Part shown: in pieces, positions 21,550 through 25,164 of the stretch
Position numbering within the stretch: position 1 is the first letter of the stretch
How the letters are laid out: each line of letters begins with the position of its first letter
Assembly: GCF_036030735.1 (NCBI RefSeq)
Contig: NZ_CP107928.1
Span: 2,666,001-2,730,000, forward strand
DNA from: Streptomyces sp. NBC_00425
Lineage (GTDB): Bacteria; Actinomycetota; Actinomycetes; Streptomycetales; Streptomycetaceae
DNA: 64,000 nt
Reading direction: 5' to 3'
Translations under genes and position numbers: made by a program
Notes under the pieces: model-generated
The model's input: the letters and a program-made list of their open reading frames with translations, nothing else
Told to the model about the DNA's origin: nothing
Databases searched by the model: none

Positions 21550-22788
21550 TCAGGACACCGGCCGCGAGTCCGCCCAGGCCAGCTCGAACTCCTCGCGATA
21601 TGCCGGGAAGAGTCCGGCTTCGTCCACCTCGCCCGGCTTGACCACCCGGCTGCCGCCCCTCAGCACCAGCACCGGCGCCTCCATGCCGCGCATACGCCGC
21701 AGATAGGACTGGATCACCGCGATGCCGTCGGCGCCGTCGCCGTCGACGAGGTAGGCGGTGAAGCGGGGCGTCTCGTCGTACACCTGGATCTGGAAGGCGC
21801 CGGGATCGCGCAGCCGGGACCGGACGCGGCGCATGTGCAGGATGTTCATCTCCACGGACCGGCTCAACTCGCCCCGTCTCATCCCGAGTTCGCGTTCGCG
21901 GCGCTTGACGGAGCTGGAGGCGGGATTGAGGAAGAGCAGCCGGATGCGGGCGCCGCCCTCGGCGAGGCGGACCAGGCGGCGGCCGGAGAAGTTCTGCACG
22001 AGCAGGTTGAGGCCGATGCCGATGGCGTCGATCCGGCGGGAGCCGTCGAAGATGTCCTCGGCGGGGAACTGGCGAAGCAGCCGCACCCGGTCGGAGTGGA
22101 CGGCGACCACGTCCGCGTACCGGTCGCCGACCAGGTCCTCGACGGCGTCGACGGGCAGCCGGCGCGCGGAGGGCACGTCGCCGCTGGTGCCGAGCATCTC
22201 CAGCAGGCGCGCGGAGGCCCGTTCGGCCTGGTTCAGGACGGCTTCGGAGAGCGCCCGGTTGCGGGAGACGACGTTACGGGTCACCTCCAGCTCGTCCAGG
22301 GCGAGTTCGACGTCGCGGCGGTCGTCGAAGTACGGCTCGAAGCAGGGCCAGTGCTGCACCATCAGCTCGCGCAGCTGGGGCAGGGTGAGGAAGGAGATCA
22401 CGTTGTCGTCGGCCGGGTCGAGCAAGTAGCCCTTGCGGCGGCTGACCTCGCGTACCGCGACGGCGCGCTGCACCCATTCCTGGCCGGCGGGACCGGCCGC
22501 GGCGACCACCCACTCGTCGCCGTGGACGGGTTCGTAGATGGGGCGCAGCACGGCGGCCACGACGGCGCGCAGCCGCTGCTCGACGAGGTTCAGCCAGATG
22601 TAGGCCCGCCCGGCCCGCTGGGCTCGGGTGCGCACCTCCCGCCAGGCTTCGGTGTCCCAGTCCAGCTCCGGTCCGATGGCGTTCGTCTCCATCGGCCGGG
22701 CCAGGGACACCGTGCCGGGCGGGACGTCTGCGGAGCCCCCCTCGTGACCCTCGTCACCAGGGGGCAGCTCCAGCCCTCCCGAGCCCAC
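21550..22788 (-). CDS. SAV2148-type HEPN domain-containing protein
   Basis: 412 residues from a GTG start that begins VGSGGLELPPGDEGHEG, a segment I recall as conserved at the N-terminus of this Streptomyces family. The family carries a HEPN-like helical domain; the segments RAYIWLNLVEQRLRAVV and DDRRDVELALDELEVTRN are the recognisable core. No signal peptide. HEPN domains are often RNases or nucleotide-binding helices in toxin-antitoxin or defence settings, but no partner gene is seen here. An upstream TTG at 22830 is less likely. Function unknown. Confidence 0.7.
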   Translation of the reverse strand: MGSGGLELPPGDEGHEGGSADVPPGTVSLARPMETNAIGPELDWDTEAWREVRTRAQRAGRAYIWLNLVEQRLRAVVAAVLRPIYEPVHGDEWVVAAAGPAGQEWVQRAVAVREVSRRKGYLLDPADDNVISFLTLPQLRELMVQHWPCFEPYFDDRRDVELALDELEVTRNVVSRNRALSEAVLNQAERASARLLEMLGTSGDVPSARRLPVDAVEDLVGDRYADVVAVHSDRVRLLRQFPAEDIFDGSRRIDAIGIGLNLLVQNFSGRRLVRLAEGGARIRLLFLNPASSSVKRRERELGMRRGELSRSVEMNILHMRRVRSRLRDPGAFQIQVYDETPRFTAYLVDGDGADGIAVIQSYLRRMRGMEAPVLVLRGGSRVVKPGEVDEAGLFPAYREEFELAWADSRPVS

Positions 22789-22890
22789 CCGCGCACCGCC
22801 TTCCGCTCCCCCGAGCACTCCCCGTCCCAACGATCAAGGAAGGGTACTCCGCGAGCGGCGGGCGGTGCAGCCGGATGGACAGGTCGTTTC

Positions 22891-24228
22891 TCAACTACCG
22901 TTGTTCGGCTGTCCGTTCTGTCCCGCGAGGGCGGAGGGAGTGAGCGGATTCATGGCGGTGACGTCCCTCGGGGCGAGCGAGAAGCCCTGCCAGTGGACCG
23001 GCATGGGCTGCTGGTCCTCGTCGCGGGCGACATGGTGGAAGCCCACGTTCACCCAGGCCACGGGGTGGGTGAGGGCCTGGCCGTTCACCCACTTGTCGAC
23101 CGAGTACCCGTGCAGCGGGCTGCCGCAGTCGCGCACGTTGTTGCTGGCGTACTGCTCGCACTTGTTGTACTGCGTGAAGTAGACGTCGTGCCGGGTGAAC
23201 GGGCGTCCCGAGTACTTGGAGGTGGCGCCGGGGACGAACTCGTAGGAGCGGGCGTGGCCGTCCTTGTTCTTGCCGGTCGCGCTGACCACCCGCCACCAGC
23301 GCAGGTTCGCCGCGTCGCCCGCGAGTTCCTTGGTGACGGCGGTGCGGGTGGTCTTGGTGGTGGGGCCCTGCTGTGCGCCGGCGGGCGGACTGACCACCGA
23401 GTCGTACTGTTCCACCTTGCCGGTCGAGGAGCCGTCGAGACCGAAGTCGAGCCGCCAGAACACGTTGTGGTTGTGGCTGGTGGCGTAAGCCTTGGCACCC
23501 TTGCCCAGGGGCCAGCCGCGGCCGTCGCCGGCGTCGTAGTCGAAGGGCGAGAGGCTGCCCGTGGCGCCGACGTTCATGTTGATCGCGCCGTCGTCGGAGA
23601 AGCGCCACTCGGTGATGTACTCGTACCAGCCCACCTTGTTGACGGTGTAGATGAGCAGGTCCTTGCCCTGGGCCTGGAAGACCTTGTTGTTGTCGGCCTG
23701 CATGCGGTAGGCGTGGCCGCGCGAACGGGTCGTCGTGCACAGGCCCTTGACGTTGGGGCTCCCGGTGAACGAGTCGGGGACCTTCACCGTGCGGATGGTG
23801 CCGCCGGGGCACTCGGCGGGGGTCATGTTGACCAGGCCCGAGCCGAAGTTGTAGTCGGTGATGTCGTTGTACTCGTTCTTGCCGTCGTCGTAGGGCACAT
23901 GGATCTGGGCGATCTTGGCGCTGTTGAGGACGCGGATCGGCTTGGCCTCGCCGGGCGGCTGGTAGGAGACCTTCTCGAGGACGAGCCCGGACTTGGCCTC
24001 GAAGCGCCAGCACATGCGCCAGGTGGTGCCGGTGGAGAGCTTCTGTTCGATGCGGTAGGCGGCGCTGCAGTCGGCGGCGGCCGCGGGGGCGGCCTTCGGC
24101 CGGGCGGCGGCCGGGCCGGCGCCGGCGACCGCGCCGGCGGCGAGCGTCGCCACACAGAGGCCGACGGCCGCGCCGGTGCGGGCGGCGCCCTGCGACCGTG
24201 GGCCGCGCTTCAGAAACGGAACGCGCAT
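22891..24228 (-). CDS. Secreted copper amine oxidase-like catalytic domain, stand-alone
   Basis: 445 residues with a signal peptide (RSQGAARTGAAVGLCVATLAAGAVAG). The rest aligns by eye with the C-terminal catalytic domain of copper amine oxidases. The copper ligands appear as H252-x-H254 (SHNHNVFWRLD) and His398/399 (VGFHHVARDED); MPVHWQGF and DVTAMNP are typical of the end. The topaquinone Tyr would be Tyr202 in GWYEY, but the usual Asn before it is Trp, and the usual base Asp region (YFDTGEY-like) reads YNFGSG with Asn127. ATG 24228 has an AAAGGAG box ten bases upstream. The N2/N3-like domains are in the next gene upstream (24346-25164). Activity is uncertain given the changed residues. Confidence 0.7.
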   Translation of the reverse strand: MRVPFLKRGPRSQGAARTGAAVGLCVATLAAGAVAGAGPAAARPKAAPAAAADCSAAYRIEQKLSTGTTWRMCWRFEAKSGLVLEKVSYQPPGEAKPIRVLNSAKIAQIHVPYDDGKNEYNDITDYNFGSGLVNMTPAECPGGTIRTVKVPDSFTGSPNVKGLCTTTRSRGHAYRMQADNNKVFQAQGKDLLIYTVNKVGWYEYITEWRFSDDGAINMNVGATGSLSPFDYDAGDGRGWPLGKGAKAYATSHNHNVFWRLDFGLDGSSTGKVEQYDSVVSPPAGAQQGPTTKTTRTAVTKELAGDAANLRWWRVVSATGKNKDGHARSYEFVPGATSKYSGRPFTRHDVYFTQYNKCEQYASNNVRDCGSPLHGYSVDKWVNGQALTHPVAWVNVGFHHVARDEDQQPMPVHWQGFSLAPRDVTAMNPLTPSALAGQNGQPNNGS

Positions 24229-24345
24229 GACGACGTGACTCCTTTGCATCCCTCTGCAGGAGGCAGGCGGGGCGACGAACGGACGGACGGGAGGGCGTGG
24301 ACCGGCAAAGGCCCACGCGTCGGTTCGGGACGGTGCGGGGCCGGC

Positions 24346-25164
24346 TCAGCCGGTGATGCGGGCCACCTTGCGGGCGCTGAGGTCGATCACCAGGCTGCGG
24401 GTGTCGATCCACGGTCCGTTCTTGACCTTCGACAGCAGCCGTACGCAGCGGTGTTCGCCGCACTTGGCGAGGGCGGCCGGGCCCGCGCCCGGCGTCGCCC
24501 GGTACACCATGCCGGCGAGCTGCAGCTGGTCGGGGGAGGTGAGGGCCTTGCCGGTGGCGTCCTTGAAGTCGGCCTTGAGGCCGGCGCCCAGCGGGTCGGC
24601 GATCAGCAGGGCGGCCGCCTCGTTCTGCTCGGCGGTGCCGAGCGGCGGCTGGACGCCGTGCTGGGAGCCGGTGGCCTCGACCTTGCCGGTGGCGAGGTTG
24701 ACGGTCTTGGTGACGAGCGTGTCGGTTCCGTAGTCGTAGAACGACACCTCCGCGCGCCGGGGGGCGTCGGGGTCGTCCACCTCGGCGGCCTCGGGGTCGG
24801 CGAGGTCCACGCCGAGGCGCTGGGGGCCGCGGTCGCCGTCCACGTCCTTCGCGGCGGTGAGCGGCTGCTGGTTGAGGGCGATCTTCTCGACGCGCGCGAT
24901 CTCGTCGTCGGTCAGCGGGTCGCGCCCGGTGCCCTTCGCGCCCTCGGCGGGCGCCTCCTCGACGACGCCGGGCCGCACCGCCGCCGTGTCCCCCTGCCGT
25001 CCGTCGGCCGCCTGCCCGGCGCTCTGTGCGTTCTTGCCGCCCCCCGTGTCGTCCGCCCCCGCCGTGCCCGGGAGGGTGATCCCGACCATCACGGCTGTCG
25101 CGGCCACCGCTATGGCCGTTCCCGCCACCACCTTGCCGAGGTGGCGGCGCACCGTCGTGCGCAC
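24346..25164 (-). CDS. Secreted protein resembling the N-terminal (N2/N3) domains of copper amine oxidase
   Basis: 272 residues, GTG start with a GGGGGAG box a few bases upstream. The signal peptide is about residues 1-37. After a Gly/Ala/Glu-rich linker, DPLTDDEI (82-89) matches the usual beginning of the N2 domain (HPL-S/T-xxEI), and HGVQPPL (169-175) matches the N3 motif before the catalytic domain. The catalytic-domain protein is encoded 117 bases downstream on the same strand. The lengths add up to one normal bacterial amine oxidase of about 640 residues. The domain match is by eye and should be treated as a strong suggestion. Confidence 0.55.
   Translation of the reverse strand: MRTTVRRHLGKVVAGTAIAVAATAVMVGITLPGTAGADDTGGGKNAQSAGQAADGRQGDTAAVRPGVVEEAPAEGAKGTGRDPLTDDEIARVEKIALNQQPLTAAKDVDGDRGPQRLGVDLADPEAAEVDDPDAPRRAEVSFYDYGTDTLVTKTVNLATGKVEATGSQHGVQPPLGTAEQNEAAALLIADPLGAGLKADFKDATGKALTSPDQLQLAGMVYRATPGAGPAALAKCGEHRCVRLLSKVKNGPWIDTRSLVIDLSARKVARITG

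Follow-up and report, generated by a model that had tools for sequence, protein, structure and literature searches.

Within a 64,000-nt stretch of the chromosome of Streptomyces sp. NBC_00425 (positions 2,666,001 to 2,730,000 of contig NZ_CP107928.1; hereafter the window, whose own numbering is used throughout) two neighbouring genes, here called A and B, appear to encode a copper amine oxidase that is divided at the boundary between its N3 (D3) and catalytic (D4) domains into two exported proteins. This division was well supported by sequence comparison and by structural models. Our preferred explanation, to which we give a probability of about 0.6, is a two-subunit copper quinoprotein oxidase that acts outside the cytoplasm (on the surface or secreted), with A and B as its subunits. 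An earlier note on this DNA had left the choice between a two-subunit oxidase assembled outside the cell and a binding protein derived from one. For the former, the split into two exported proteins was borne out by profile comparison, fold comparison, gene neighbourhood and co-inheritance, while the assembly is model-based; the latter appears less likely, given the invariant catalytic residues.

Both genes are open reading frames of one strand, as the earlier note had described, here the minus strand of a 9.8-Mb single-contig genome, and the best named relatives of their products were from Streptomyces. Gene A (24346..25164) starts with GTG and encodes the 272-aa N2-N3 (D2-D3) protein. Gene B (22891..24228) encodes the 445-aa catalytic protein, or a 452-aa form if translation starts at 24249; residue numbers of B refer to the 452-aa form. 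A likely ribosome-binding site, AAAGGAG (24239..24245), lies 10 nt upstream of the 24228 ATG but 1 nt downstream of the one at 24249, so that the shorter form looks better. The two genes are separated by 117 nt (24229..24345) and lie in the same frame with a single TGA between them.

Catalytic domain and active site of protein B

Protein B was the sole match to PF01179 (Cu_amine_oxid) in this genome, with an E-value of 1.8e-41 and 142.8 bits against a cut-off of 27. Pfam and profile-profile comparison placed the D4 domain at residues 63-435 (22945..24063). The NCBIfam profile PRK11504 (primary-amine oxidase) gave 126.7 bits, which is below its curated cut-off of 651. Alignments further predicted His259 and His261 (23467..23475) as the first two copper ligands and His406 (23032..23034) as the third. 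The PF01179 match and the invariance of the first two histidines agree with the earlier assignment of this protein as a catalytic domain with an HxH copper motif.

We compared active-site residues in an alignment of 53 split-type and 37 ordinary, one-chain enzymes, as well as in 247 B rows representing 237 distinct sequences and in 120 further relatives. A duplicate (L001) and two incomplete ordinary genes (L052, L053) were dropped before counting. Two sets of 120 B proteins were the listed best of 582 and 448 matches and therefore lean to close relatives. Tyr120, Asp129, Tyr209, Tyr211, His259, His261, His406, Glu411, Met416 and Pro417 were invariant in 53/53 split rows. The putative cofactor precursor Tyr209, the three copper histidines, Asp129, Tyr120 and Met416 were also invariant in all 247 B rows and in all 120 further relatives. 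Tyr120 (23890..23892) presumably takes the place of Tyr284 in the phenylethylamine oxidase of Arthrobacter globiformis (AGAO). Asp129 (23863..23865) aligned with the catalytic base, which was likewise kept in 37/37 ordinary rows. The suggestion that the base Asp had been replaced by Asn was thus refuted, and loss of the base was rejected: the Asn is the neighbouring N128, a variable position that holds D, S, N, Y, Q or H among the 247 rows.

The earlier observation that Trp stands in place of the usual Asn before the topaquinone-precursor Tyr was confirmed. Trp208-Tyr209 (23623..23628) carried Trp in 246/247 B rows and in 120/120 further relatives. Ordinary enzymes had Asn there in 36 of 37 rows, and the split rows had Trp in 52/53 and Tyr in one (L023). 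Of the copper amine oxidase consensus around the precursor Tyr, as given in the available part of PMC3382800, the Tyr and the Glu/Asp were kept, and the Thr was replaced by Lys or Gln in 46/53 split rows. The Trp beside the Tyr is the most specific clue to an altered chemistry. A lysine tyrosylquinone (LTQ)-type cofactor formed with the Lys four residues before the Tyr is not a general solution, with Gln at that position in 23/53 rows. As a separate observation, the ordinary amine oxidase at locus L161 has Val, not Asn, before the Tyr.

Protein A as the D2-D3 part

For protein A no Pfam match was found up to an E-value of 1, and the only NCBIfam match was to positions 16-122 of the PRK11504 profile (E 5.6e-4, 18.5 bits, cut-off 651). 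Profile-profile comparison aligned residues 80-270 of A with residues 22-204 in an 11-row set of ordinary amine oxidases, at a probability of 95.5 and an E-value of 1.4e-8. When the model of A alone was searched with Foldseek, all 46 matches at E<=0.001 were amine-oxidase chains, the fold alignment spanning residues 9-190 of the Arthrobacter enzyme and 17-209 of the Hansenula enzyme. From these comparisons we place the N2 (D2) domain at about residues 80-170 (24655..24927) and the N3 (D3) domain at about residues 176-271 (24352..24639), both with approximate boundaries. The N2/N3 features that had been read from the sequence of the 272-aa protein were therefore recovered by profile-profile and fold comparison; single hidden Markov models did not recover them.

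The N-terminus of A, about residues 1-36 (25057..25164), is a predicted export signal or signal anchor. The best hydrophobic 19-mer in this region had a mean Kyte-Doolittle value of 2.08 over 120 relatives. Close relatives of A carry the source name 'Tat pathway signal sequence domain protein', and 57 of the 120 have RR within their first 15 residues. Export by the twin-arginine (Tat) pathway was nevertheless not supported, since the [ST]RR-x-hydrophobic pattern occurred in 0/120. A loose A-x-A pattern matched all 120 relatives and for this reason does not separate a cleaved signal from an anchor.

Near its C-terminal end A contains the motif CGEHRC (residues 235-240; 24445..24462), the cysteines of which probably form a disulfide. 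C-x-x-x-R-C was kept in 22/22 A proteins found outside Streptomyces. We rejected this motif as a copper site, the His being replaced by Q, D or E in several of these proteins while C-x-x-x-R-C stays.

Two separate genes, kept together

A preceded B on the same strand in 46/46 loci (this locus included), and the reading frame of B relative to A was 0, 1 or 2. The three frames occurred 36, 24 and 20 times in a set of 80 named Streptomyces loci, which were the top 80 of the 260 that A had retrieved. The 126 loci were chosen through A, B or both and hence show arrangement, not frequency. The shared frame and single TGA in the window might suggest a broken or mis-sequenced single gene, or a product of read-through or frameshifting. 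The frame varies between species, which argues against one read-through gene, and joining by either mechanism was rejected. B moreover has a likely ribosome-binding site and a signal to itself, and the arrangement recurs in five other families, which excludes chance; we regard the probability of a single gene as negligible.

Frequency was estimated in genome surveys. A survey of 101 Streptomyces genomes detected A in 44 and PF01179 in 47; split-type B was present in 42 with 45 copies (both counted by hand), and every copy had A next to it in the same orientation. Five PF01179-positive genomes had no split-type B (G018, G031, G045 and G090, with ordinary enzymes only, and G001). Of the two other genomes with A, one (G009) carried a short B tail fused to a remnant of A between the usual neighbours, and another (G063) a fragment of A and no B. 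A class-level survey of 394 genomes detected split-type B in 40, of which 23 lay outside Streptomyces in five other families. In 22 of these 23 loci A was again upstream on the same strand, and no A-B fusion was seen among the 23. The survey of split-pair conservation that the earlier note had proposed thus showed A beside B in 42/42 Streptomyces and 22/23 other genomes.

The position of the precursor Tyr in B is in line with this. It was at residue 172-224 in the 240 listed B proteins versus 383-429 in ordinary enzymes, leaving no room for D2-D3 ahead of it. An A profile likewise found no D2-D3 in 120 B proteins, a weak test, as it found D2-D3 in 2/17 ordinary enzymes; the Tyr position is the stronger argument.

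Named relatives of B came from Motilibacter, Jiangella, Microbacterium, Agromyces, Georgenia, Aeromicrobium, Mumia, Nocardioides, Micromonospora, Actinoplanes and Planomonospora, a list that rests on B. A phylum-wide sample of 396 genomes gave six matches, all in Streptomyces. When 30 selected split rows were combined with 37 ordinary rows in a tree, the split rows all fell on one side of a branch with 100/100 support. Because of the long branches between the groups and the midpoint root, this tree does not order the split and one-chain arrangements in time.

Modelled assembly and proposed function

We modelled the pair as one chain consisting of A, the intergenic stretch and B, from an alignment of 88 rows that were all of the split family and included no ordinary enzymes. 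The model reached a mean predicted local distance difference test (pLDDT) score of 78.0 and a predicted template modelling (pTM) score of 0.79, with the artificial linker (238-315) below pLDDT 50. From the pTM formula we estimate that about 0.6 would be expected if only B were confidently placed, and the higher value suggests that A was placed relative to B. Superposition on AGAO aligned residues 9 to 627 with 523 residues at 4.2 Å and covered both parts. The model thus gives indirect support for an assembly in which A would sit on B as D2-D3 on D4. As far as they could be examined, neither of the two outcomes that the earlier note had named as refuting spoke against the split oxidase.

In the proposed mechanism, the D4 domain of B would bind one copper via H259, H261 and H406, with Y209 as the precursor of a topaquinone-type cofactor and D129 as the base, as the conserved residues suggest. 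A would be the D2-D3 cap, which in ordinary enzymes is part of the same chain, exported here by its own signal. Docking of A on B at the normal D2-D3 position would form the amine entrance between two chains, and two copies of B are likely to associate by their D4 domains, like the family's known homodimers, to give A2B2. According to the accessible text of PMC3382800, one of the few channel positions conserved among ordinary enzymes is position 155 of HPAO-1. We take this position to lie in D3, and that channel lining would therefore come from the second protein here. The Trp beside the quinone would probably change the freedom of the ring to turn and with it substrate range or rate, by analogy with the Asn-to-Ala mutants considered below. 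Outside Streptomyces, an exported DUF305 protein found beside many of the relatives may supply or buffer copper. The enzyme would probably oxidise amines on or beyond the cell surface, with release of an aldehyde and H2O2, and we propose that the split may permit exchange of the lid or access of large substrates.

Several observations weigh against this reading. A profile of A found no amine oxidase among PDB sequences. The docking of A in the usual place may be a memory of AlphaFold, which has seen whole amine oxidases, and the Foldseek root-mean-square deviation of the whole linked model from AGAO (2cfd_A) was 11.4 Å over 718 columns including the linker. In one genome (G405), where B is a lipoprotein by its N-terminus with a lipobox (L209, 6550-8013), a search with the A profile from Streptomyces revealed no A; that profile might overlook a strongly diverged A, and it did detect A in G381 of another family. 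A may thus be dispensable in G405. The Trp could cripple the enzyme, since mutants at the Asn are badly impaired: in the parts of the sources available, Asn381Ala of AGAO slowed biogenesis of topaquinone (TPQ) 180-fold, brought kcat down 160-fold and allowed flipping of the quinone (PMC9491219), and Asn404Ala of HPAO-1 made just 5-10% TPQ (PMC3382800). The consensus Thr is also lost in most split rows. Regarding copper supply, we found no DUF305 gene beside Streptomyces pairs, and the nearest of three DUF305 matches in this genome is more than 1.6 Mb away.

The impaired mutants, the Trp at a nearly invariant Asn, the lost Thr and the alteration of many other positions invariant in ordinary enzymes would also fit a B that is no longer an amine oxidase, i.e. 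a copper-binding or non-enzymatic surface protein with the fold kept and A retained as a partner. We think this unlikely, since Tyr209, the three His, the base Asp, Tyr120 and Met416 did not vary in either set of relatives, the catalytic set is conserved in several families, and a mere copper site would need neither the Tyr nor the base Asp. As the Trp is itself nearly invariant and the rest of the site is kept, we read it as adaptation rather than decay. A further, rather doubtful view takes the pair as a distinct actinobacterial copper quinoprotein branch that is two-chain by old design: the Trp would replace the Asn gate, cofactor and chemistry would be unlike topaquinone (e.g. a quinone shielded by the Trp, or a copper-tyrosyl oxidase with surface polymers as substrates), A would be a removable lid and the DUF305 protein a copper donor outside Streptomyces.

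Another possibility, which we consider quite improbable, is that B alone or as B2 forms a wide-open site of the lysyl-oxidase type for large surface substrates, with A as a separate membrane regulator or placer. The lipoprotein B of G405 would fit such a role, as would the channels of some amine oxidases that admit peptides (available text of PMC3382800) and the surface anchors and Ig-like (immunoglobulin-like) or Pro/Thr-rich tails of some B relatives. PF16640 Ig-like domains were listed after the catalytic domain for 15/120 B relatives, and among eight scanned B proteins Big_3_5 was above the cut-off in three and DUF4214 in one. In 4/4 loci of one family the C-terminus of B had an LxxTG-like motif together with a hydrophobic segment and with Arg residues. 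Against independent action of B stand the retention of A as a D2-D3 pair with B in nearly all surveyed genomes that carry split-type B and the linked model, which puts A as in ordinary enzymes.

Relation to known copper amine oxidases

The copper amine oxidases solved until 2012 were one-chain homodimers with domains D1-D4 in a row, as far as the available text of a review of that year goes (PMC3382800). In the Arthrobacter enzyme the Asn beside the quinone is described as key to holding the productive orientation (PMC9491219, in part). In family members a single chain of about 70-80 kDa carries D2, D3 and D4; here D2-D3 lies in A and D4 in B. Judged by sequence, the pair departs from the family in two features, the single chain and the consensus Asn, and appears to agree with it in the others that could be compared. 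With AGAO the pair shares the D2-D3 and D4 folds in order, the copper His, the precursor Tyr and the base Asp. AGAO differs in being one chain with Asn before the Tyr, whereas A-B comprises two chains, has Trp in place of this Asn, and separates D3 from D4 by about 50 residues that have no counterpart in AGAO. The human enzyme AOC3/VAP-1 is an amine oxidase of one polypeptide held in the membrane by its N-terminus. If A retains its signal as an anchor, it would resemble AOC3 in having an N-terminal hydrophobic segment before D2-D3; AOC3 differs in that it is a single polypeptide, while A and B are separate.

We regard the pair as a new two-chain variant of copper amine oxidases rather than an ordinary member. 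A check of open-licence literature turned up no publication that describes a split copper amine oxidase. In the accessible parts of related papers, PMC13097080 reported co-occurrence of a copper amine oxidase with graspetide group 41, PMC4448552 concerned lysyl oxidases, and the word 'Streptomyces' did not occur in PMC12058724. The clade departs from the one-chain rule and from the Asn, yet keeps the other catalytic residues, and is thus well suited, as a natural experiment, to show how active sites of this family are built and used. Two questions become directly testable: what D2-D3 contributes, with A added or withheld, and what keeps the quinone in place, or which product arises in its stead, where Trp substitutes for Asn. 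Should the two-subunit explanation be true, genes of this clade named 'copper amine oxidase' or 'primary-amine oxidase' may need co-expression with a differently named second gene.

Genomic neighbourhood

In Streptomyces the main pair is flanked by a gene for a 426-aa protein (21550-22830 in the window) and by two genes that we take, from their sequences, to be GlgX and TreY. GlgX was beside the pair in 80/80 and the 426-aa protein in 76/80 named Streptomyces loci; we presume the latter to be possibly a HEPN-type protein. The pairs at loci L018-L020 and L023 lie elsewhere, and neither GlgX nor the 426-aa neighbour was found there. In 6/7 loci of one family outside Streptomyces (L175, L207, L211, L214, L217, L222) the pair stands between maltokinase and GlgB in the order GlgE-TreS-maltokinase-A-B-GlgB. 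The name GlgB was Pfam-tested at these loci; GlgE, TreS and maltokinase are presumed names. The pair was thus seen in two different alpha-glucan neighbourhoods, one outside and one within Streptomyces, and its link to trehalose and glycogen genes is only positional.

A DUF305 gene lay downstream of B in the same orientation, 0.1 to 0.85 kb past the catalytic domain, in 12 of the 23 loci outside Streptomyces (L171-L173, L176, L210, L212, L213, L215, L216, L218, L220, L221). At one further non-Streptomyces locus the contig ends where DUF305 would follow B. At four of the twelve (L176, L212, L215, L221) the retrieved sequence also contained a CopC-CopD gene. Synechocystis CopM, an extracytoplasmic copper-binding protein (PMC4335983, in part), belongs to the DUF305 family. 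CopM differs from the present case in serving copper resistance, and the available text of that paper makes no link to an amine oxidase.

Further observations

A second, divergent A-B pair was present elsewhere in 3/101 Streptomyces genomes (L018 in G069, L019 in G055, L020 in G096). Its A was 38-40% and its B 45% identical to those of the window, and both the split and the Trp-Tyr were kept. Weak partial PF01179 matches in G001 and G148 fitted neither the split nor the ordinary group. Matches in G377, G434, G473, G515 and G570 were flagged with one in-frame TGA inside, possibly from the profile reaching upstream of the start of B. At L209 in G405 a gene upstream on the same strand encodes a long repeat protein of acidic character with an LPDTG-like sequence at its end. 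In an order-level sample, where A was not searched for, split-type B of G197 lay in two open pieces.
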